Shown: in pieces, positions 11,650 to 61,767 of the stretch
Position numbering within the stretch: position 1 is the stretch's first letter
Layout of the letters: the number at the start of each line of letters is the position of its first letter
DNA from: Muribaculaceae bacterium Zag1
GTDB taxonomy: Bacteria > Bacteroidota > Bacteroidia > Bacteroidales > Muribaculaceae
Length of the DNA stretch: 64,000 nucleotides
Direction: 5' to 3'
NCBI GenBank assembly: GCA_002633115.1
Contig: NWBJ01000001.1
Location: forward strand, 1 to 64,000
Position numbers and translations under genes: made by a program
The notes under the pieces: generated by a model
Told to the model about the DNA's origin: nothing
Seen by the model: the letters and a program-made list of their open reading frames with translations, nothing else
Database searches by the model: none

Positions 11650-11817
11650 AGTAGTGTGTTTTTTCTATTAAAAACACCCGGCATCGCCGATTTGTTGGGA
11701 TAAAGCCAGGGGAGGATGTCACATAAGCCTAAGCAAATGAGGATTTTAAAGATATATGTAACATTATTTCGTTAAAAAATTTTAGTAATTGATAAAAATG
11801 TTGTAATTTTGCGCTCA

Positions 11818-12010
11818 CTAATTGGTGCCCATTCTCCGAGGTGAATGGGTCAAAAGGGAATCAGGTGCAACGCCTGAGCAGACCCGCTACTGTATGTGGC
11901 ATAACTTACCGGACATCTAAAGCCATTGGGTGAAAAACTATTTTTTATTAGCCTGAGAAGGCGTCTGGTCAAGGTCACGAGCCAGGATACCTGCCAATTA
12001 GCGACATATT
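11818..12010 (+). promoter_or_regulatory. cobalamin (AdoCbl) riboswitch
   Basis: ggtgccc...aaaagggaatcaggtgcaacgcctgagcagacccgctactgta...gtca..gagccaggatacctgcc (B12 box). Confidence 0.92.
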
Positions 12011-12054
12011 TTTCAATAATCTCGAGGAATAGATTTTTTGAAATTCATATACGT

Positions 12055-44998: not shown

Positions 44999-46957
44999 AT
45001 GAGTTATCTTAAGTTTGATAAGAATCTACTCATCAACCTCGAACAGTCGCTGCCTAAAGAGATGCTGCGCACCAACTTCGCCGGGGCATACCATGCCACG
45101 ACACTCGTTGGGTGCAACACCCGCAAGCAACATGGCCTGCTCGTGATCCCCATCCCCGAGATGGGAAACAAGCCCCATGTGCTGCTGTCGTCGCTTGATG
45201 AAACTGTGATTCAACATGGAGCGCCCTTCAACCTGGGCATTCATCGCTACCAAGGCGGAGTATACAGCCCTAACGGGCACAAGTACATCCGCGAGTTTGA
45301 CTGCGAAAACGTGCCGCGCATGACCTATCGAGTTGGCGGAGTAGTCCTTACCAAAGAGAAGATTTTCATCTCACATGAAAACCGTATTCTCATCCGCTAC
45401 ACCCTGGTCGATGCCCACTCGGCCACTACGCTCCAGTTCCGCCCGTTCCTCGCTTTCCGCGAGAGCAATTCGCTCTGCATCGCCAACGATGCCATCAACC
45501 GCGAAATAATCCCCGTTGAGAACGGCGTGGCCACTTGCCTTTATCACGGATTCCCCACCCTGTACATGCAATTCTCACGCAAAGTCGAGTGGGTCGACAA
45601 TCCCAACTGGTACAAAAACATCGAATACATCAAGGATATGGAGCGCGGAGTGCCCTACACCGAGGATTTGTGGGTGCCCGGCTATTTCCAGCTCCCCATC
45701 AAGAAGGGCGAATCCATCATCTTCTCGGCCGGCGTCGAGCCTGTCAATCCCCGCTCGCTCACCAAGATGTATGAAAAGGAGATCATCTCGCGCACACCGC
45801 GCTCGAGCTTCTTCAACTGCCTGAAAAACGCTGCCAAGCAATTCTATCTCACCGACCAATACGGCCACTTCATCATCTCGGGCTATCCTTGGGGCACAAT
45901 CCTGGCTCGCAACACGATGATGGCTCTCCCCGGCCTCACTCTCGCCATCGACCACCGCAAGGACTTTGAGGAGATTATGGCCACAGCATCCGAGGCTCTG
46001 GTCAAATTCATGGAGAAAGGCGAACTCTCGCCCTTTATCCACGGCATCGACCTGCCCGACATCCCGCTGTGGTGCGTATGGGCTCTGCAACAGTACGCCA
46101 AGAATCTTGGCGATGATGCTACACGCGAGCGCTACATGCACCTCATCGCCCAGATGATCGACTACATACTCGACGGCGGCCATCCCAACCTGCGCGTCGA
46201 CCCGGACAACGGTTTGGTATCCACTCTGGGTGTCACCAGCCCCGTATCGTGGATGAACTCGCAGCTCAACGGTCGCCCCGTGATACCGCGCACCGGCTAC
46301 CTGGTAGAGTTCAATGCTCTCTGGTACAATGCACTGCGCTTCGCCGCTGCACTGGCCGAGCATGACCCGGAGATGGCCAACCGCGCCGAGCGCTGGACCG
46401 CCGCTGCCGACAAGATGAAACAGCCGTTCGTCGACACATTCCTCAACGATTACGGTTACCTATACGACTATGTCAACGGCACATACGCCGACCCGCAAGT
46501 GCGCCCCAACATGGTGGTTGCCATCGGCCTCGACTATTCGCCGCTCGACCGTCGCCAGCGCAAGGGCGTGCTCGACGTAGCTACACGCGAGCTGCTCACC
46601 CCCAAGGGATTGCGCACCCTCTCGCCTAAGAGCTATGGCTACCGGCCCCACTACCTCGGCTCGCCCGAGGAGCGCGAATTGGCTCTCCACCAGGGTCCGG
46701 CACGTCCTTGGCTCATCGGTTTCTACGCTGACGCTTACCTGCGCGTCTTCGGCATGAGCGGCGTCAGCTACATCGACCGCATGCTCATCGGCTTTGAGGA
46801 TGAGATGACCCAGGGCTGCATCGGTTCGCTCTCTCAGCTCTACGACGGCAACCCGCCTTACAGCGGCCGCGGAGCTATCTCTCACGCCACCAATGTGGCT
46901 GAAGTGCTGCGCACATCGCGCACTATCAAACGTCTAACACAAGATCACCATTTCTAA
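44999..46957 (+). CDS. glycogen debranching enzyme
   Basis: GYPWGTILARNTMMALPGLTLA, LRTLSPKSYGYRPHYLGSPEERELALHQGPARPWLIGFYADAYLR. Confidence 0.93.
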   Translation: MSYLKFDKNLLINLEQSLPKEMLRTNFAGAYHATTLVGCNTRKQHGLLVIPIPEMGNKPHVLLSSLDETVIQHGAPFNLGIHRYQGGVYSPNGHKYIREFDCENVPRMTYRVGGVVLTKEKIFISHENRILIRYTLVDAHSATTLQFRPFLAFRESNSLCIANDAINREIIPVENGVATCLYHGFPTLYMQFSRKVEWVDNPNWYKNIEYIKDMERGVPYTEDLWVPGYFQLPIKKGESIIFSAGVEPVNPRSLTKMYEKEIISRTPRSSFFNCLKNAAKQFYLTDQYGHFIISGYPWGTILARNTMMALPGLTLAIDHRKDFEEIMATASEALVKFMEKGELSPFIHGIDLPDIPLWCVWALQQYAKNLGDDATRERYMHLIAQMIDYILDGGHPNLRVDPDNGLVSTLGVTSPVSWMNSQLNGRPVIPRTGYLVEFNALWYNALRFAAALAEHDPEMANRAERWTAAADKMKQPFVDTFLNDYGYLYDYVNGTYADPQVRPNMVVAIGLDYSPLDRRQRKGVLDVATRELLTPKGLRTLSPKSYGYRPHYLGSPEERELALHQGPARPWLIGFYADAYLRVFGMSGVSYIDRMLIGFEDEMTQGCIGSLSQLYDGNPPYSGRGAISHATNVAEVLRTSRTIKRLTQDHHF

Positions 46958-49937: not shown

Positions 49938-49946
49938 CCACCCATA

Positions 49947-49984
49947 AATCCCGAGATGCCCCACGCATCTCGGGATTTTTCTTT
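49947..49984 (+). terminator. intrinsic terminator
   Basis: aatCCCGAGATGCcccacGCATCTCGGGatttttc. Confidence 0.85.
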
Positions 49985-49987
49985 GTA

Positions 49988-50049
49988 ATCACCGGATTTG
50001 AGATGGCGAAGAATTTTATTTTTGGGAAAAACGGTAACAAATTTGTCAA
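49988..50049 (+). repeat. 62-bp direct repeat, copy 1
   Basis: 59/62 identical to 59711-59772; contains ggtaacaaatttgtcaa. Confidence 0.9.
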
Positions 50050-50231
50050 CGCGGCCCGTAGGGTCGCCTCTGTAACCAATAAAAAATTTTAATATTTCGA
50101 GAAAATTTTTTAGATAAAAATTTTCAGAATCCAGAATTATTGCGTATACTTGCGGTGTCTCCTCACAATCATCCAATTATGCCGGATGAGGGGTTAATTT
50201 ATAACCGTCAACCAATGACTAATCCAAAAAT

Positions 50232-53066
50232 ATGAAAAGACTAACCCTCCTTGCCGCCACAGCCTCTCTGCTGCTGGCATCCTGCAGCGACGAAATCCGC
50301 ACTGAGGTCGCCAACCCCGGCCAAGAAGTGCAGGTGAGTTTCTCTGCCTCCCTACCTGAGCAGATGCTCAGCCGCGCCACCAACGTCAGCGACGGCACAA
50401 CCGCCAACAGACTCAACTACACAGTCTTCAAGGACTCAAAGGCGATTACTTCAGGCGATGTATCAGATGCTTTCCAAGACAAGAAAACCAAGTCACAAAC
50501 CGTGTCCCTGCCCCTAATCACTGGCGAGACCTACTCCATCGTTTTCTGGGCCGACAACTCAAGCAGTCCCTATAGCTATTCCGACGGCGTGGTGACAGTT
50601 GACTATGCCAAGGCTTATGCCAACGATGAGAATGCCGACGCATTCTTCGGCCAAGAACTTAACTACACAGTCACCGGTTCTGCCTCCAAAACTGTAACCC
50701 TCACCCGCCCCTTCGCCCAGATAAACTTTGGCACAACCAAGGCCGACTATGAGGCAGCCGTACTCTCTGGCCTTGACGCATCAGAATCAGCAGTCGCTAT
50801 TAAAACTCAGACCTACAAGACCTTTAATCTTATTGATGAATCAGTTGCGGATGCAGTTGATGAGGTTACATACCTTAATCTTACAACTCCCACCGACGAG
50901 GACGATCCATTCAGCCTTAATCCCGACCAACGCGCTGCGCTTACAGTCGATGGCACCGATTACGTTTACGTCGGCTACGCCTACGTGCTGACCCAGCCCG
51001 AAAACAAGGCTGAGAACATCACCACCGTGACCCTCACCCCGGTAAGCGCAGGCGAGACTGTACGGACGTACACCAACGTGCCCGTCAAGCGCAACTACCG
51101 CACCAACATTATTGGTAATCTGTTCACATCTTCAGTTGACTACACCGTCTTGATTGACCAGAATTACGTAGACGATATCAATGTTGAGGTTTGGGATGGC
51201 AGCATCGAGCAGCCTACTATTAGCGGTACCACAGTGCACATCGCCAATGCTGCAGAATTGGCTTGGTTGGCAGATTACGTGAACAATGCCACCGAGAAAG
51301 TGTCACGCGCAGAGGAAATTCCTTTTGATTTCTCCGGTTATACCGTAGAGCTGACCGAAGACATCTACCTCAACGATGAGCCTTGGACTCCAATCGGCCT
51401 CAACGCTGACAACGTACAGCGCAAGTTCAAGGGCACATTCGACGGCAAGGGCTACACCATCTACAACCTCCATGTCGAGCAAGAAGCGGCCTACCGCGCA
51501 GCCGGCCTGTTCGGTGCGCTTAACGGCACCGCCAAGGATTTCACCATCGACGGCGCATACGTCAACAGCCTGTCGAGCGGCAGTGCAACTGACAACGGCA
51601 TAGCTGTCGTAGCCGGTTCTATCTACGATGGAGGCACAATCGACGGCGTGACCGTCAAAAACGCCGAGGTTTACGGAAACCGCTATTGCGGAGGCGTGGC
51701 CGGATACACTTACGGCAACGTCACCAACTGCGCCGTTGATGGAATCACCATCGTTTGCACCCCTGACAACCTTACAGGCAGCTATGATAACGGCGACAAG
51801 GTCGGCGGTCTGGTGGGCTACTTCGTGGATAAGTCTACCTACGTCGTCGACAACTGCACAGTGAACAATGCCAAGGTGACAGGCTATCGTGACCTGGGCG
51901 GTCTGATCGGCTGCGCCAACAAGGCCACGTCGGTTAACAACTGCACCGTCTCCAACACCAAAATCATCCCATCGTCAACCAATGCTTACAGTGGCCACTC
52001 GGCAGGCGAAAACACTGACCTGATAGTGGGACGCCAAATCAGCGGACCCCTCCCCGCCTCCAACACCGCCGTCAATACCACCATCAACGTTACCACGTTC
52101 AACGGTGCGACATACGCTTATGACGACACGCCTTGGGACGGCGAGAGCACCCAAGAGCCTACAATCGACAGCGATGGCAACGTGATTGTCGCCTCCGCAG
52201 CCCAGCTCGCCGGCCTCGCCGCAATGGTCAATGCGGGCGAAGAGCTGTATCAGAAGGACGTCTACCTGCTGTGCGATGTTGACTTGGCGGGACACAACTG
52301 GACATCAATAGGCTGCGAAGCCAACAAGTTCGGCGGCAACTTCGACGGCCAGGGCCATACCATTAGCAACCTCTACATCAAGGACTCCATAGAGCCCGGT
52401 GTGTATGAGCAAAGCCAAAACTGCGGCCTGTTCGGTTGGGTAAGGCGCGAACGCAGATACTAGATAAAGAATTTCAATATCCACAATGCCGAGATCGTAG
52501 GCGCCTACGGACTGGGCGTAATCTGCGGCGAGCCACACATGTACACCTTCAGCGACATCACCGTCACTGGCAAAGTCATAGTGAAGGGTACTGCCAGCGT
52601 TGGCGGCATGTTTGGCTATTATTGCTACAGCAACCTTGCCAACCTCACCATGGAGGTCGATCCCGGCAGCTATGTTGAAGCCGAGGTGTACGTAGGCGGC
52701 ATAGTCGGCCACCGCACCGAGGGGACCCTTACTGCCACCAACCTCAAGTCTAACATCGATGTTTATGCCTCCAACGGCCAAGTGGGCGGCATAGCGGGCG
52801 TTGCCCTGTACAACAACCAGTACATCAACTGCTCGAGCAGCGGCGACGTGTATGTCGTAACCGACAGCGAAACCAAAAACTCAAAATACATAGGAGGCAT
52901 AATCGGCTCATGGTCGAGCGCTCAGGCCACAGTGACGCTTACCGGCTGCTCATACACCGGCACTCTGCATTACGTGCTTGCTGGCGAAGAGCAGACTCTC
53001 GATGATCCTCAGCAGCTTGCTGGCCCAACTTACAATTCTGGTACCGGAGAGCTGATAATCAATTGA
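50232..53066 (+). pseudogene. DUF6562 + GLUG-repeat surface lipoprotein, interrupted by in-frame TAG at 52461-52463
   Basis: LLLASCSDE lipobox; ORFs 50232-52463 and 52539-53066 are in the same frame. Confidence 0.8.
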
Positions 53067-53203
53067 CTCTAACCTTATTGCTTTGTCAGAAATTGTGTGT
53101 TTCTGACAAAGCGATAAGGGGTTATAATAAGGGGTTATAACCCATTCAGACATCGACATCCTGGAAAAACTGAATGGCATGAGCCGTTCTTCAACAAACC
53201 TAA

Positions 53204-54439
53204 ATGATCCGAAAAATCCTTGCATACCATGTAGTAGCTATATTGTGCTGCCTGTTGTCGCCTTGCTCGCTGTCGGCCGAGACAAGGCAGCTCGCCGTGT
53301 CCGTAGGCTTCCCGGTCAACAAGACCGAGCTGCTGCCCGGATTCGGCGACAACGCCGCGCAGCTCGCCCAGATGGAGGATTTCCTGAGCAACATTGACCC
53401 GGTGACGATCGACATCATACGCGTCGACGGCTACGCCTCGCCCGAGGGGCCGTACCGGCACAACCTGCGTCTGGCCGAGGGCAGAGCGCAGGCGCTGATC
53501 CGCTACATTGCCGAGCACACCGCCATCCCCGCCGAAAAGCTCGCCGTGGGCGAGAGTCATCTCTCATGGGAGGCCCTGCGTCCCCTGGTCGAGGAATCGG
53601 AGATGAAGGATGCCGACACCGTGCTGGCCCTGATCGACGTGGCCCTCGCCGACCAGGGCGAGGCCGCACAGCTCGACGCCATCGGGCGCCTGCAGCGCCT
53701 CAACTCGGGAGCCGCTTGGCGCGAGATGAAGCGCAAGCTGTTCCCCCAGATCCGCTACAGCCAGCTCAGCGTGGAAATCATCGACGAGCCGGAGCCTGAG
53801 CCAGTCATCGAGCCAGAGCCTGCCATCGAGCCAGAGCCAATAATCCAGCTGATCGACACGGTGGCCGCTCCGGTCACAGCCGCTGCCGAGCCCGAAATCG
53901 AATCCTACCGCCATCTCTACCTCAAGACCAACGGCGTGGGCTGGGCCATGCTCGTGAGCAACCTCGCCGTCGAGCTTGACATCGCTCCCCATTGGTCGGC
54001 GACGCTGCCGGTCTACTACTCCGGGCTCAACTTCTTCGGCCACAAGGTGAAATTCCGCACCTTCACCATCCAGCCCGAGGGGCGCTACTGGCTGCGCCAC
54101 GATGACGGAGGCAACCACGGCCTGTTCGTCGGCGCGCATTTCGGCCTCGGCTGGTACAACTACGCCATCAACGGCAAATACCGCACCCAGGACCACGACG
54201 GCAACACTCCCGCCATCGGAGGAGGCGTAGCCGTGGGCTGCCGCATGCGCCTGGCCGGGCGCTGGAGCCTGGAGTTCTCGGTCGGCGCCGGCGTCTACGA
54301 CGCCCGCTACGACAAGTATCTCAACGAGCAGAACGGAGCCCGCGTGGTCAGCGACCGGCACCGCACGTGGGTCGGCATCGACCAGGCTGCCGTCAGCATC
54401 GTCTACGCATTCCCTGTCAAGAAAGGAGGGGGCAGATGA
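53204..54439 (+). CDS. OmpA-like/DUF3575 outer membrane protein
   Basis: OmpA-like VDGYASPEGPYRHNLRLAEGRAQALIRYI; Pro/Glu linker; C-terminal beta-barrel. Confidence 0.85.
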   Translation: MIRKILAYHVVAILCCLLSPCSLSAETRQLAVSVGFPVNKTELLPGFGDNAAQLAQMEDFLSNIDPVTIDIIRVDGYASPEGPYRHNLRLAEGRAQALIRYIAEHTAIPAEKLAVGESHLSWEALRPLVEESEMKDADTVLALIDVALADQGEAAQLDAIGRLQRLNSGAAWREMKRKLFPQIRYSQLSVEIIDEPEPEPVIEPEPAIEPEPIIQLIDTVAAPVTAAAEPEIESYRHLYLKTNGVGWAMLVSNLAVELDIAPHWSATLPVYYSGLNFFGHKVKFRTFTIQPEGRYWLRHDDGGNHGLFVGAHFGLGWYNYAINGKYRTQDHDGNTPAIGGGVAVGCRMRLAGRWSLEFSVGAGVYDARYDKYLNEQNGARVVSDRHRTWVGIDQAAVSIVYAFPVKKGGGR

Positions 54440-55473
54440 AGCGACCGTTCCTTTGCGCTGCGCTGATGTCGCTGCTCATGCTGGTGTGCGGCTGCGTCCA
54501 CGAGTTCCCCAACGTCGAGGAGCCCGAGGTGGTGAGGCAGCCGGTGACCGTGCACCTGAGCTTCGACTATGAGATGCCGCCGTACCGCGACCTGCTGTAC
54601 GAGAACGGCGTGCTCACCTCGCGCACGGCGTCGGAGGAATACGATGCCCGCTACTACGTAGGCTTCTACATGGCCGCTGATGCCCGCGCCGCGGCATCGC
54701 GCGTGCCCGACGACATACAGGTCATCACGCGCGACGACATCAGCGAGCTCGGCTGCGACCTGGTCCTCGACATCCCCGAGGGGCCCCTGACGGTGATGGT
54801 CTGGACCGACTACGTGCTGCAGGGCACGACCGGCGACCTGCACTACAACGCCGACGACTTCGCGGCGATCTCCTTCAGCGACCCCTACGTGGGCAACACC
54901 GACATGCGCGACGCCTTCAGGGGATGCACCGAGTGCACGATCAGCCCCGAGGGAGGCGAGGAGATATGGGTCGAGATGCGGCGCCCGATGGCAAAGTACA
55001 AGTTCATCGCCACCGACTACGAGCTGTTCCTCTCCCGGGCCGAAGCCAGGGCTCGAGCCGAGGCAGCCCGCGCAGGGGACGACCCCGACGAGGTCACGGT
55101 CGACATCGACGACTACACGGTCCGAATCGTCTATCCCGGCTTCCTGCCGAACGTCTACAACATGTTCACCGACAAGCCCGCCGACGCATGCACCGGCGTG
55201 AGCTTCGAGTCAAAGATAGTGCCGCTCAGCGACGGCACGGCTGCGCTCGGCTTCGACTACGTGCTGGTCAACGGCGACGAGTCGCTGGTGACCGTGGCGG
55301 TGCAGATCTGGGACAAGCAGGGGCAGCTGGTGTCGGGCACAGAATCGATGAACGTGCCGCTGCAGCGCTCGATGCTCACCACGGTCTCGGCCGACTTCAT
55401 GACGCAGGAGGCGAGCGGAGGCGTGGGCATCTCGCCCGGCTTCAACGGCGAGTTCAACATCTACATCCAGTAA
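54436..55473 (+). CDS. DUF6562/fimbrillin-like (Mfa2/FimB-type) lipoprotein
   Basis: MKRPFLCAALMSLLMLVCGCVHEFPNVEEPEVV lipobox; ATGA overlap with upstream. Confidence 0.75.
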   Translation: MKRPFLCAALMSLLMLVCGCVHEFPNVEEPEVVRQPVTVHLSFDYEMPPYRDLLYENGVLTSRTASEEYDARYYVGFYMAADARAAASRVPDDIQVITRDDISELGCDLVLDIPEGPLTVMVWTDYVLQGTTGDLHYNADDFAAISFSDPYVGNTDMRDAFRGCTECTISPEGGEEIWVEMRRPMAKYKFIATDYELFLSRAEARARAEAARAGDDPDEVTVDIDDYTVRIVYPGFLPNVYNMFTDKPADACTGVSFESKIVPLSDGTAALGFDYVLVNGDESLVTVAVQIWDKQGQLVSGTESMNVPLQRSMLTTVSADFMTQEASGGVGISPGFNGEFNIYIQ

Positions 55474-55516
55474 ACTAACAAACAACCAAATAAACCAATA
55501 ACAAAACCCCAAAGAC

Positions 55517-58450
55517 ATGAAAAGATTAACCTATCTTGCCGCCGCAGCCTCTCTGCTGCTGGCATCGTGCAGCGATGAAATCCGCACGGACGTCGCCAAC
55601 CCCGGCCAAGAAGTGGAGGTCACCTTCTCGGCCTCCCTCCCCGAGCAGATGCTCAGCCGTGCCACCAACGTCAGCGACGGCACAACCGCCAACCGCCTCT
55701 GCTACACCGTGTTCAAGGGTGGTGCCGCGATTAGCTCTGGCACAGTAAACAATGCCTTCCAGGCAACCGCCAAGGCCGAAACCGTTTCGCTTCCGCTCAT
55801 CACCGGCGAGACTTACAGCATCGTGTTCTGGGCTGACAACGCAAGCAGCCCGTACAGCTATGACGAAGGCGTGGTGACAGTTGACTATGCCAATGCTTAT
55901 GCCAACGATGAGAATGCGGATGCTTTCTTCTGGGCCGAGAAAGACTACACAGTCACCGGCGCTGCGGCCAAGACTGTGACCCTTACGCGTCCCTTCGCCC
56001 AGATCAACTTCGGCACCACCAAGGCCGACTACGAGGCAGCCGTAAAATCGGGCCTTGACGTTACTGAATCGGCTGTCGCAATCAAGACCCAGACCTACAA
56101 GACCCTCAATCTTCTTGACGGCTCAGTAGATGGCAAAACAGAGACCGACGTGGTGACCTATGCCAATTGCACCACCCCTACCGACACCGATAATCCTTTC
56201 GGACTTACAAACGATGATCGCGCAGCTCTGACCGTTGAGGGAACCGATTACGTTTACGTCGGCTACGCCTACGTGCTGACCCAGCCAGAAGACAAGGCTG
56301 AGAACATCACCACAGTGACCCTCTCTCCCAAGAGCGCCGCAGAGACCGTCCGCACCTTCACCAACGTGCCTGTCAAGCGCAACTACCGCACCAACATCAT
56401 CGGCAACCTCTTCACCTCTTCGGTTGACTACACCGTCTTGATTGACAGCAACTACAAAGATCCCGATGAGAACATCAGCGTGATTACTTTCAAGGGCGTT
56501 GGCTACAAGGCCGACTATTCAGCATGGGACGGCACCAGCGCCGTTGCTCCCTACGTCAACGATGAGGGCGATGTGATCATCGCATCCGCTGCTCAGCTCG
56601 CCGGCTTCGCAGCCCAAACCAACGGCACTCTCAGCCGTAGCGAAAGCACTTTCACCGATGAGAATATCTACCTCCTCCTCGACGTTGACCTCGCAAGCCA
56701 GGAGTGGACTCCTATCGCAGCTGAGGCAGCCAACGCTTTCTCTGGCAATTTCCACGGCCTCGGACACACCATTTCTAACCTCAAGGTTACTAAAGCCACA
56801 CAGGTAGCTGGCCTCTTCGGCTGGTCGCACAACTGCAGCATCGATGACCTCAGAATCGTCAACGCTGAAATCAGCTCGCTGGACATCGCTACCATTACGC
56901 TTGGCGAGAACGATGGTCACGGCAACAAGAATAGCACTGGCGCAGCCGCTGTGCTTCTGGCTCACGAAGTGGGCTTGCAGTCAGTGGAATATCCCGGCAT
57001 CAGCAACATCACTGTATCTAACGCCACCATCAAGAGCCACCACTACGCAGGCGGCATCGTGGGCTGCTTCCAGCACTGGGGCGCAAAGACCTACATCCAG
57101 AATTGCAACGTCAGCGACCTGTCGATCACGCTTGAGTTTGAAGAAACTTCTGAGGGTTGGGACAACGCAGACAAGGCTGGCGGCATTGTTGGCCAAAGCG
57201 GCGCACTCGGCAGCAACGGTTCGGATGTCAACTACCTCAAGATTCAGAACAACACTGTCAACAATCTGACCATCATCGGTTATCGCGACCTCGGCGGCAT
57301 CATCGGTGGCACCAACAGCAATATCCATGTGCTCAACAATTCCGTCAACAATTCTACCATCAGCTTTACTTTCGGCACAGACGGGCAGAATTACAAGGGG
57401 CTCACCTCTCCCAAGAATGTAGGCAAGATTTGCGGCGCTGAACTTTCGACAATGGTAATATCCGGCAACGTAGCCAACAATGTGAGCGTGGGCGCCACCT
57501 TGGAGGCAACTCCCGAGACCTTAGGCGACATCCTCAAGGGCCTTACAACCGACGCAGTGATAACCCTTGCTCCTGGCGAGTACACATTTGACGGCACAAC
57601 TGGGAGCAAGAGCTGGGGAAGCAAATTCAAATCATGGGACTGGACTGAATATGCCACCTATGAAGGAATGGAAGTTTCCGTATACGAAAATTTCTATGAA
57701 GGTCAAAACATAACCCTTATAGGCAGCGGCACGGACAAGACCGTGTTCATCAACAGCGACGGTTACAAAGTTAATAGCGCCTATACCATTAGCCAAGGCG
57801 GCCTTGGTCATCAGGTTATGGTCAACAAGGCCAACATCACCTTCAAGAACATGCTCGAGATTGTGCGCTGGTACTCGATCATCGACGCTAAGAACGAAAC
57901 CCATGAAGGCTGCATCATTTGGGGCGAGGTTGATCCGCGTTCTGAGACTGTGACTTACAATAACTGCGACTTCTATACCACCGAGCGCAAAGAAACCATT
58001 AACGATAAGGAGTACTTTATCACCAGCGCCTATCAGGGCCCGATTGCTTACGGCATGTACTGCCGCACATTGAACTTCAACAATTGCAATTTCGAAGCCA
58101 ACCAAAACAAGGCCGTACAGGTATATGCTACCATGCGTCCTTATGTGCTCATTGACATCAATGCTACTGGTTGCACTCTCTCAGGAGGCGCAATTCAAGC
58201 AAGTTCCAAACAAACCCAGCGCGCATTCTTTGAGGTGCATGGCGATTGCTCAATCCATGGCAACATGAATCTCAGTGGTTGCTCAATCAATTCGGCTGAT
58301 ACCGCCAATTGGGGCGGAGGCCTTGTCTATGACGGTCCTTGGGCTAATGAAGGCGACACCTACTTCAATTTGACTATTGATGGATCGCCCTCTCATAGTG
58401 CCACATTTGTTGCTCCGGTTGATATTGTTTGGACAGGCGAATTCAAATAA
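55517..58450 (+). CDS. DUF6562 + GLUG/right-handed-helix-like surface lipoprotein
   Basis: N-terminal ~310 aa nearly identical to 50232 product, different C-terminal half. Confidence 0.8.
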   Translation: MKRLTYLAAAASLLLASCSDEIRTDVANPGQEVEVTFSASLPEQMLSRATNVSDGTTANRLCYTVFKGGAAISSGTVNNAFQATAKAETVSLPLITGETYSIVFWADNASSPYSYDEGVVTVDYANAYANDENADAFFWAEKDYTVTGAAAKTVTLTRPFAQINFGTTKADYEAAVKSGLDVTESAVAIKTQTYKTLNLLDGSVDGKTETDVVTYANCTTPTDTDNPFGLTNDDRAALTVEGTDYVYVGYAYVLTQPEDKAENITTVTLSPKSAAETVRTFTNVPVKRNYRTNIIGNLFTSSVDYTVLIDSNYKDPDENISVITFKGVGYKADYSAWDGTSAVAPYVNDEGDVIIASAAQLAGFAAQTNGTLSRSESTFTDENIYLLLDVDLASQEWTPIAAEAANAFSGNFHGLGHTISNLKVTKATQVAGLFGWSHNCSIDDLRIVNAEISSLDIATITLGENDGHGNKNSTGAAAVLLAHEVGLQSVEYPGISNITVSNATIKSHHYAGGIVGCFQHWGAKTYIQNCNVSDLSITLEFEETSEGWDNADKAGGIVGQSGALGSNGSDVNYLKIQNNTVNNLTIIGYRDLGGIIGGTNSNIHVLNNSVNNSTISFTFGTDGQNYKGLTSPKNVGKICGAELSTMVISGNVANNVSVGATLEATPETLGDILKGLTTDAVITLAPGEYTFDGTTGSKSWGSKFKSWDWTEYATYEGMEVSVYENFYEGQNITLIGSGTDKTVFINSDGYKVNSAYTISQGGLGHQVMVNKANITFKNMLEIVRWYSIIDAKNETHEGCIIWGEVDPRSETVTYNNCDFYTTERKETINDKEYFITSAYQGPIAYGMYCRTLNFNNCNFEANQNKAVQVYATMRPYVLIDINATGCTLSGGAIQASSKQTQRAFFEVHGDCSIHGNMNLSGCSINSADTANWGGGLVYDGPWANEGDTYFNLTIDGSPSHSATFVAPVDIVWTGEFK

Positions 58451-58536
58451 GCTTATCTCTCTTTAGGTCATGGGGGTTATGCCCCCATGGCTTTCATATC
58501 TGTACATAGGATTAACAACTGAATAACCATATCGCT

Positions 58537-59505
58537 ATGAACAAATTTGCTTACATGGCTGCTGCGATGGCACCATTGCTCTTCTGGAGCTGTTCGTCGG
58601 ATGGCGAAGACACTGCGCCGCAGGAACAGACGGCTGCCGTGACAGTGGCCTTGTCGCTCCCCGATGGGATGTCGTCGCGCGCCGTGAATGGCGACGGCAC
58701 CAAGGCCAACGACTTGTACTACACCCTATATGATGCCGACAAGGCCGCAGTGACAGCCTACACTGGAGTCAAGAAGGCCGACTTCTTCACCAACGGCAGC
58801 CTCCAAAACACCCTGACGCTGCAACTGGTGGTGGGCAAGACCTACTATCTGGCATTCTGGGCCCAGAATGCAGACGCTCCCTACACCTTCGACTGGAGCA
58901 ACGCCACTGTGTCGATGAACTATGAGGATGGCACTCCCGCCAACGCTGAGGCGAGGGACGCTTTCTTCAATTGGGCCACAGTCACAATGACTGGTCCGGA
59001 GACCATCTCTGTCGAACTGTACCGCCCGTTCGCCCAAGTCAACATCGGCACCAACGACTACAACGCAGCCGTGGCTGCCGGCACAACTGTCACCAAGACG
59101 GCTATCGAGATTACCGCCGACACCTACGCCACGCTCAACCTGCTCACTGGCGCGGCTTCCGACCCGGTGGCTGTTAAGTTCGGCCAAACCGCAATGCCTA
59201 CCGACGATAAGGGCTTCCCGACACAGGAGGATGCCAACGCCAAGGCTCCCGACACCGGCTGGACTTGGCTGTCGATGAATTACCTGCTGATGAATGCCGT
59301 AGATGCCACCAACAGCGGCGGCAACGAGGTTATTGGCAAGATCACCCTCTCGACCGACCAGACCGAGGACAAGGAGTACGCCAACATCCCCGTCAAGCGC
59401 AACTACCGCACCAACATCATGGGCACTCTGCTGACAGCTACCGCCGAGTTCATCGTCGAAATCAAGCCCGACTTTGATTCTCCCGACTTTGACGAAATCC
59501 AATAA
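58537..59505 (+). CDS. DUF6562 family lipoprotein
   Basis: LLFWSCSSDG lipobox; NIPVKRNYRTNIMGTLLTATAEFIVEI shared C-terminal motif. Confidence 0.8.
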   Translation: MNKFAYMAAAMAPLLFWSCSSDGEDTAPQEQTAAVTVALSLPDGMSSRAVNGDGTKANDLYYTLYDADKAAVTAYTGVKKADFFTNGSLQNTLTLQLVVGKTYYLAFWAQNADAPYTFDWSNATVSMNYEDGTPANAEARDAFFNWATVTMTGPETISVELYRPFAQVNIGTNDYNAAVAAGTTVTKTAIEITADTYATLNLLTGAASDPVAVKFGQTAMPTDDKGFPTQEDANAKAPDTGWTWLSMNYLLMNAVDATNSGGNEVIGKITLSTDQTEDKEYANIPVKRNYRTNIMGTLLTATAEFIVEIKPDFDSPDFDEIQ

Positions 59506-59576
59506 CCTGAGGGTGCAGGTATATTCCCTATACCTGAATAAGGTACCATAAAATATCTTTCTACAATCACGCACCC

Positions 59577-59611
59577 AATTCCAGGACGCTGAGTAAGCGC
59601 CCTGGAATTTT
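59577..59611 (+). terminator. terminator hairpin; right part forms 29-bp direct repeat left copy (59583-59611)
   Basis: AATTCCAGGaCGCTgagtaAGCGcCCTGGAATTttc. Confidence 0.85.
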
Positions 59612-59710
59612 CTTCTCTCCATCCTTTGTCAATTCCGAATTAATGCGTACATTTGCAGAGAAGAGAAATCAAATATCATGCCCTGGCTACAATATCAAGT
59701 ACTAAGGCTA

Positions 59711-59772
59711 ATCATCTGATTTGAGATGGCGAAGAATTTTATTTTTGGGAAAAATGGTAACAAATTTGTCAA
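59711..59772 (+). repeat. 62-bp direct repeat, copy 2, in promoter of AbiEi-like gene
   Basis: 59/62 identical to 49988-50049. Confidence 0.9.
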
Positions 59773-59827
59773 AAATTTTGTTTTATGACAAAAATGTACT
59801 ACTTTTGTAGCCAATATTGGATTATCG

Positions 59828-60565
59828 ATGGTTCGTAAAAACGACATATTATTATACGCCAACAACAATGTCCAATTCTCATATCGAGATCTTTACTCCT
59901 ATTTTGATTCGCAGGGCATTGAATACCAGCGCAGCTCCATCCTGACACGCCTAAAACGGCTTGTATGCGATGGAGTCCTCAAACGCGTTGGTACGGGCGT
60001 CTTATCCCTTGCCGACACCGTCTTGCCATCTTTCCAACCCGTCTTTACCACCGAGATGGAACAAATAGAGAAACTGCTCCATCATGCCTTTCCTCTGCTC
60101 GATATTTGCATCTGGCACATCGACGACATCAAGAGCATGTCCCATTACTTTGTAAATCTGGATATAATTTATATTGAAACTGAGCGTGACTCAGTAGAGA
60201 GCGTATTCAATTTTCTAAATGAGTGCATCACAGATAGGAAGGTGTTTATCTCCCCATCAAAAGAAGATTACCAGCATTACATCATTGGCGAACCGTCAAT
60301 CGTGGTCCGTCCTCTGATGAGCCAAGCACCAGTGAAAAAGTACGGAGACAAAAGCTTGCGCTCAAGCCTTGAAAAGTTGTTGGTTGAGGCTGTTTGCGAT
60401 GATGATTTTGAGGTTTGGCACGGATACCAGGCCTTGCGCCTCTACGACACCGCAATGGATCGCTATTCCGTCAATTTACCCCGCCTTATGAGATACGCCT
60501 CCCGGCGCAACCGTAAAGAAGAAATTTCAAAAATAATAGAAAACCGTCACAATATATACCAATGA
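59828..60565 (+). CDS. AbiEi-like antitoxin (DUF6577-like)
   Basis: winged-helix N-terminus, ILTRLKRLVCDGVLKRVGTGVLSL; overlaps the nucleotidyltransferase gene by 4 bp. Confidence 0.75.
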   Translation: MVRKNDILLYANNNVQFSYRDLYSYFDSQGIEYQRSSILTRLKRLVCDGVLKRVGTGVLSLADTVLPSFQPVFTTEMEQIEKLLHHAFPLLDICIWHIDDIKSMSHYFVNLDIIYIETERDSVESVFNFLNECITDRKVFISPSKEDYQHYIIGEPSIVVRPLMSQAPVKKYGDKSLRSSLEKLLVEAVCDDDFEVWHGYQALRLYDTAMDRYSVNLPRLMRYASRRNRKEEISKIIENRHNIYQ

Positions 60566-61626
60566 TTAAACCAGAGAGCCGATCTATAGAATGGATTGAG
60601 CATCTACGCACCATTCACCCTCACATCGACAAACAGTTGATTGAAAAGACTATTCGGGCATTCTCCCTCCTGGAAGCCCTCGCCATGACTGATTTACCCT
60701 TCTGCTTTAAGGGGGGCTCATGTACCATGCTCCACATGGGCACTACCCAAAGACTCAGCACTGATATAGATATTATTTGCCCTCCCGGTACCGATATAGA
60801 AAGCCGAATCGGCCAGTACGCCTCAGAGTACGGCTTCTATGATGTACAGTTAGTTGACCGCAAGTCAAAACACAACGTGCCCAAAACTCACGCCAAATAT
60901 TTCTATGAGGTGACATATCAAACACGAGCCTCCACCGACAAAGTGCTACTGGATGTGCTGTTCGAGGATCTCCACTACAAAAAGACTGTATACAAACCCA
61001 TCACCAGCCCATTCCTTTTGGAGCATGGGGAGAAAAAGAATGTGAGAGTTCCAGCCGTGGAGGATATTCTGGGAGATAAGCTCACTGCTTTTGCTCCCCA
61101 CACTACAGGAATCCCATTCTTCAAAATCCAATCATCGGCATTTGTGGAGATTGTTAAGCAAATGTTTGACATTGCTTCGCTGTTCGATTTAGCGGAGGAC
61201 TGGGACACTGTGGGTGAAACTTTCCGAAAATTCGCCATCATCGAACTCGGTTATCGCAATTTGGAGCAAACTACCTTTGCCCAAATATTAGAGGATGTGA
61301 TAGCCACTGCTGAATGCATAGCAATGAAAGGCCAGAAGAACCCAGAGGAGTTTGCATATCTCATGGAGGGAATCCGAGGTTTGGGCCATTTTGTTATATC
61401 CGGAAAATATACTTTGGATAGAGCAATCAAGGATGCCGGAAAAGCAGCCTACATAGCAGCTTCGCTCATGCATAACTCTATTCCTAATAGAAGATTTGTC
61501 GAAGTTAACCCTGATGAACTTAACAACCTGAACATCGGAAACTGTTTAAGTTCCAAACTAAACAAACTGAAGAAAAACAATCCAGAAGCCTTCTTCTATT
61601 GGTCATGTGTCGACCAACTTCTATAA
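60562..61626 (+). CDS. AbiEii-type nucleotidyltransferase toxin
   Basis: FCFKGGSCTMLHMGTTQRLSTDIDIICPPG GG...DID motif. Confidence 0.85.
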   Translation: MIKPESRSIEWIEHLRTIHPHIDKQLIEKTIRAFSLLEALAMTDLPFCFKGGSCTMLHMGTTQRLSTDIDIICPPGTDIESRIGQYASEYGFYDVQLVDRKSKHNVPKTHAKYFYEVTYQTRASTDKVLLDVLFEDLHYKKTVYKPITSPFLLEHGEKKNVRVPAVEDILGDKLTAFAPHTTGIPFFKIQSSAFVEIVKQMFDIASLFDLAEDWDTVGETFRKFAIIELGYRNLEQTTFAQILEDVIATAECIAMKGQKNPEEFAYLMEGIRGLGHFVISGKYTLDRAIKDAGKAAYIAASLMHNSIPNRRFVEVNPDELNNLNIGNCLSSKLNKLKKNNPEAFFYWSCVDQLL

Positions 61627-61629
61627 AGG

Positions 61630-61685
61630 AAAAAGGTAACAAAATTGTCAAATATTTAAATATTTGACAATTTTGTTACCTTTTT
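61630..61685. repeat. 56-bp perfect palindrome carrying operator-like GGTAACAAAATTGTCAAAT
   Basis: AAAAAGGTAACAAAATTGTCAAATATTT|AAATATTTGACAATTTTGTTACCTTTTT. Confidence 0.95.
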
Positions 61686-61738
61686 AATATTAAGAGGGAT
61701 TCTAATCACCAGCGGAGCCTATGGCCTAAGGGAGATTA

Positions 61739-61767
61739 AGGACGCTGAGTAAGCGCCCTGGAATTTT
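61739..61767. repeat. 29-bp direct repeat, right copy
   Basis: aggacgctgagtaagcgccctggaatttt identical to 59583-59611. Confidence 0.95.

Follow-up and report, generated by a model that had tools for sequence, protein, structure and literature searches.

Duplicated promoter fragment and candidate operators at both ends of an AbiE-type toxin–antitoxin operon in a Muribaculaceae genome

AbiE modules are type IV toxin–antitoxin systems, described in Streptococcus agalactiae (PMC3985639) and, as Rv2827c, in M. tuberculosis (PMC7319586). Autorepression by the S. agalactiae antitoxin, AbiEi, at inverted repeats in its promoter is established; the protein binds single half-sites with a Kd of 10–30 nM, and one half-site suffices for repression where it overlaps the promoter (PMC3985639). 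In the literature compared here, AbiE autoregulation has so far been described at the promoter only. We analysed a related operon in a 64,000-nucleotide stretch of DNA from Muribaculaceae bacterium Zag1, referred to as the window, in which all features discussed below are given on the forward strand. The first gene of the operon, at 59828–60565, encodes a 245-residue antitoxin/repressor of Pfam family DUF6577 (PF20217, 1.4e-47) that matches PADLOC AbiEi over residues 2–241 (2.9e-60). The second, at 60562–61626, overlaps the first by 4 bp and encodes a 354-residue AbiEii nucleotidyltransferase toxin (PF08843, 5.7e-13; PADLOC AbiEii, 1.6e-118).

The operon resembles those of S. agalactiae and Rv2827c in pairing an antitoxin with a nucleotidyltransferase-like toxin, in the matches of both proteins to PADLOC AbiEi and AbiEii, and in the inverted repeats of the antitoxin promoter. 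Unlike in those systems, the antitoxin belongs to DUF6577, a family that we did not find named in the literature searched. The candidate operator is a short dyad with a core of 22–23 nt, as opposed to two 23-bp repeats, and a second full candidate operator lies 3′ of the toxin gene, with an orphan half-site elsewhere. A single-sequence structure model of the antitoxin was poor (pLDDT 40.6), and on the question of an N-terminal winged helix, profile searches returned matches to DNA-binding proteins at E values of 0.18–0.58 only. A search for related loci seeded with the antitoxin returned no relatives; DUF6577 loci were gathered by Pfam searches that covered relatives, the order and the family of the window, and 90 promoters were examined.

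A dyad of the form NNCA-N14/15-TGNN with extended arms, scoring 10 or more, was found in 73 of the 90 promoters, against 1.6 expected from dinucleotide shuffles. As the search itself favours palindromes, it is the shuffle control that carries the evidence. By locus count, the half-site pairs were GGCA/TGCC (50), GTCA/TGAC (11), GCCA/TGGC (6) and ACCA/TGGT (3), and the two variable positions covary between loci. These dyads define a candidate operator for an entire unstudied antitoxin family, with half-sites that vary by lineage in matched pairs. In the window, the full dyad AACAAATTTGTCA-N14-TGACAAAAATGT lies at 59759–59797, with a 22-nt core (GTCA...TGAC) and a score of 11; most likely, the DUF6577 antitoxin binds this promoter dyad and thereby represses its own operon. 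A second DUF6577/AbiEii locus of the same genome (L116, G000:C106) has a promoter palindrome with 22-nt arms and the half-site pair ACCA/TGGT, and a partial additional DUF6577 copy lies near it.

The upstream part of this promoter occurs a second time in the window. The first-pass annotation had reported near-identity of 49988–50049 and 59711–59772 at 59 of 62 positions and had tied the repeat to the AbiE-type promoter. Both observations hold; the gap-free repeat is two bases longer at its left end, with 61 of 64 bases (95%) identical between copy 1 (49986–50049) and copy 2 (59709–59772), the latter forming the upstream portion of the antitoxin promoter. The copies are in direct orientation, 9723 bp apart, and their edges are sharp, with no leftover similarity in the flanks on either side. 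By BLAST against the whole 4.46-Mb genome, the 64-mer occurs in two places only (E = 3.4e-27 and 2.8e-23), so it is not the dispersed genomic element that had been considered in the first-pass annotation. Its core, GGTAACAAAWTTGTCAA, has four mismatch-free occurrences in the genome, one in each copy and one in each arm of a palindrome at 61630–61685. The BLAST E values, together with a chance expectation of 0.12 per window for the core at up to three mismatches, rule out a fortuitous match. No full-length 64-mer was found in any of 195 relatives, the longest partial match being 27 nt; an exact internal 25-mer was absent from genome_contigs, from which records very near the window's genome are possibly excluded; and Rfam contained no known RNA element matching at the repeats.

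The right end of copy 2 lies one base beyond the left arm of the dyad, at the border of arm and spacer. Copy 1 therefore carries one half-operator, GGTAACAAATTTGTCAA (50033–50049), without a partner arm; no right arm is found close by, and the region scores 2 as a dyad, compared with 11 for copy 2 and 14 for the palindrome at 61630–61685. The earlier annotation of the 3′ end of the repeat as putative operator sequence is supported, but the shared 17-mer represents only the left half of the operator, the full dyad spanning approximately 59759–59797.

Copy 1 is situated between two features that are also found in G006, a sister species of the same genus. On its left, a terminator hairpin and T-run (49946–49982), conserved in G006, follow a gene for a GH57 protein that is 99% identical in the two species; on its right, copy 1 abuts a REP-like element, GCGGCCCGTAGGGTCGCCTCTGT (50051–50073), to which a related element corresponds at the equivalent position in G006, and the same DUF6562 lipoprotein cluster follows. 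In G006, only 2 bp separate the terminator from the REP-like element and no 64-mer intervenes, such that the window differs by the 64-mer and a few bases. The 16-base core of the REP-like element has 27 genomic matches at up to two mismatches, against 2 for a reversed-pattern control; several are in inverted pairs and many are followed by GTAG, although the copy next to the 64-mer is not. In being short, palindromic, dispersed and intergenic, with inverted pairs common and GTAG ends in many copies, this neighbour of copy 1 resembles GTAG-tagged REP elements and REPINs (PMC3733652, PMC3116915). The likeness is confined to the neighbour: the 64-mer itself is limited to two copies.

Taken together, we consider it reasonably probable that copy 2 is native and that copy 1 is a lineage-specific duplicate, fused with the assistance of a hairpin to the edge of the REP-like element and of little effect on the lipoprotein genes. 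We read copy 1 as lineage-specific because G006 has the cluster and its core promoter yet neither copy 1 nor the operon; as the synteny comparison comprises one close relative having the site, a gain in the window's lineage is inseparable from a loss in G006. The direction of copying was probably from copy 2 to copy 1, judging from operator completeness and one distant homologue. The operator is complete at copy 2, and the first bases of copy 2, ATCATCTG, are closer than those of copy 1, ATCACCGG, to the one distant homologue that the left 46 bases have; it matches at 83%, comes from a different genus of the family (L131, G466:C39) and lies upstream of a gene closely related to the window's open reading frame at 44999–46957. 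In the proposed course of events, 64 bases from the upstream part of the operon promoter would have been copied non-tandemly and inserted downstream of the GH57 terminator, against the edge of the pre-existing REP-like hairpin. As to mechanism, breakpoint position is what we have to go on: since copy 2 breaks within a base of the arm/spacer border and copy 1 joins at a hairpin, it points to end joining with the help of a hairpin, or to template switching. Copy 1 has the appearance of a stray duplication of recent date, not of a control switch; the consequence for the lipoprotein genes would be little or none, and the antitoxin's real sites would be the dyad in the promoter and the perfect palindrome 3′ of the toxin gene.

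The repeat itself would be a minor rearrangement, but it led to this second, complete candidate operator. Three bases separate the toxin stop codon from the perfect 56-bp palindrome (61630–61685), whose half-sites and 14-nt spacer length are identical to those of the promoter dyad. Among the 66 loci with both module ends available, 7 had a promoter/3′-end pair scoring above the 99.9th percentile of non-cognate pairs, compared with 0.07 expected. Including two weaker cases, paired operators occur in nine loci (the window, G063, G100, G196, G248, G277, G407, G445 and G124); core lengths agree within eight of the nine, and spacer sequences mostly differ. On the antitoxin tree, the trait requires at least three changes among the rows scored (in a seven-member clade, in G124 and in the window), and four when all 92 rows are counted.

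Two other accounts of the 3′ palindromes were rejected. As mere terminators, they would not be expected to have arms that match the cognate promoter dyad and not those of other loci, and a T-run at or just beyond the end of the palindrome is seen at some of the nine loci only. Mismatches in the arms showed no clear bias towards an RNA-hairpin signature (10 G-T versus 5 A-C). As mobile repeats, they would be expected elsewhere, and genome-wide searches of nine relatives gave few matches beyond the module ends. The searches used a 23-nt pattern, to which the promoter copy of G248 does not conform, its core being 22 nt long. In the seven paired relatives, the only match beyond the module ends, with two mismatches, was in G407; G314 had one additional match with two mismatches, and in G260 a third site goes with a second copy of the toxin, located at the end of a contig.

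The simplest reading of these pairs is selection for antitoxin binding at both module ends, with repeated gene conversion between the ends as the alternative. We advance only tentatively, and on sequence grounds, a broader proposal: the second operator 3′ of the toxin gene would be a deliberate part of DUF6577/AbiEii modules, with the antitoxin binding at both ends, and orphan sites such as copy 1 and a dyad at 53082–53110 would be extra targets outside the module. If so, binding at both ends of the operon could serve looping, a roadblock to read-through, or protection or mobility of the unit, and binding at the 3′ palindrome would mean that autoregulation of a type IV toxin–antitoxin system involves both operon ends.

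The operon lies on a 2127-bp island (59612–61738) that is absent from the syntenic site in G006. The island is flanked by 29-bp direct repeats, AGGACGCTGAGTAAGCGCCCTGGAATTTT, of which the left (59583–59611) is part of a terminator and the right occupies 61739–61767; in G006 there is a single copy, followed by approximately 380 bp in which one reading frame looks ATPase-like on inspection of the sequence. Towards the left end of the island, 59625–59708 is a remnant with similarity to the promoter and initial codons of a G006 regulator gene, identified by eye as WYL-type. Another DUF6577 module, L205, has a longer flanking direct repeat that is terminator-like in appearance.

Toxin–antitoxin modules come and go at sites such as that of copy 1. 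The first-pass annotation had offered copy 1 as the scar of a former insertion, in which case a whole module would once have stood between the terminator and the REP-like element, and its deletion would have extended from the middle of the operator up to the edge of that element. In favour of this, copy 1 does correspond to the module's upstream end, and the cluster next to it has been rearranged between G006 and the window's genome. The antitoxin, the toxin and the 3′ palindrome are all missing at copy 1, however, and the repeat directly abuts the REP-like element. With no further module sequence left there, a scar fits less simply, requiring both an insertion and a deletion where a single duplication would do, and we regard it as unlikely.

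Regulation of the DUF6562 lipoprotein cluster in trans, by antitoxin bound to the half-site at copy 1, had also been put forward, and we judge it improbable. The left half-site is intact, and the cluster contains an extra dyad, TTTGTCA-N15-TGACAAA, at 53082–53110. As S. agalactiae AbiEi binds lone half-sites (Kd 10–30 nM) and can repress through them (PMC3985639), binding at copy 1 is possible and the half-site there need not be inert. The geometry differs, though, from that of AbiEi, which represses when it sits over its own promoter: copy 1 lacks the second arm, and the likely −7 box of the lipoprotein promoter, TATACTTG (50145–50152), lies approximately 95 bp further downstream. We take this box to match the consensus of Bacteroidetes promoters; it is nearly conserved in G006, where the core promoter is almost unchanged despite the absence of copy 1. 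Moreover, the first DUF6562/GLUG lipoprotein gene (50232–52463) is interrupted in both species. In the window, a premature in-frame stop after 743 residues cuts short a region extending to 53066 in which G006 reads on, and in G006 the gene is frameshifted early on. Distance from the −7 box, absence from G006 and interruption of the downstream gene together make cross-regulation unlikely.

That the two copies form a deletion-prone direct repeat, allowing phase-like loss of the 9.7-kb cluster by recombination, is physically possible given their orientation, identity and spacing, but is very improbable, as a 64-bp repeat is short for homologous recombination to be efficient, no single-repeat derivative was found among the genomes searched, and G006 retains the whole cluster without the repeat.

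Several further observations were made along the way. The exact dyad at 53082–53110, whose inner half-sites are the same as those of the toxin–antitoxin operator, is part of a palindrome with 20-nt arms (53073–53119) between the first lipoprotein gene and an OmpA-like gene, and approximately 100 bp around it are missing from G006. The N-terminal region of the DUF6562 lipoproteins is duplicated, with 50224–51158 and 55509–56446 being 80–88% identical. In other Bacteroidales, imperfect repeats such as ACACATTGGCAAG...CTTGCCAAAGAGT lie upstream, beside the DUF6577 modules L165 and L207, and resemble the repeats of cassette arrays. Elsewhere in the window, a cobalamin riboswitch (RF00174, 103.7 bits) occupies 11806–12012.
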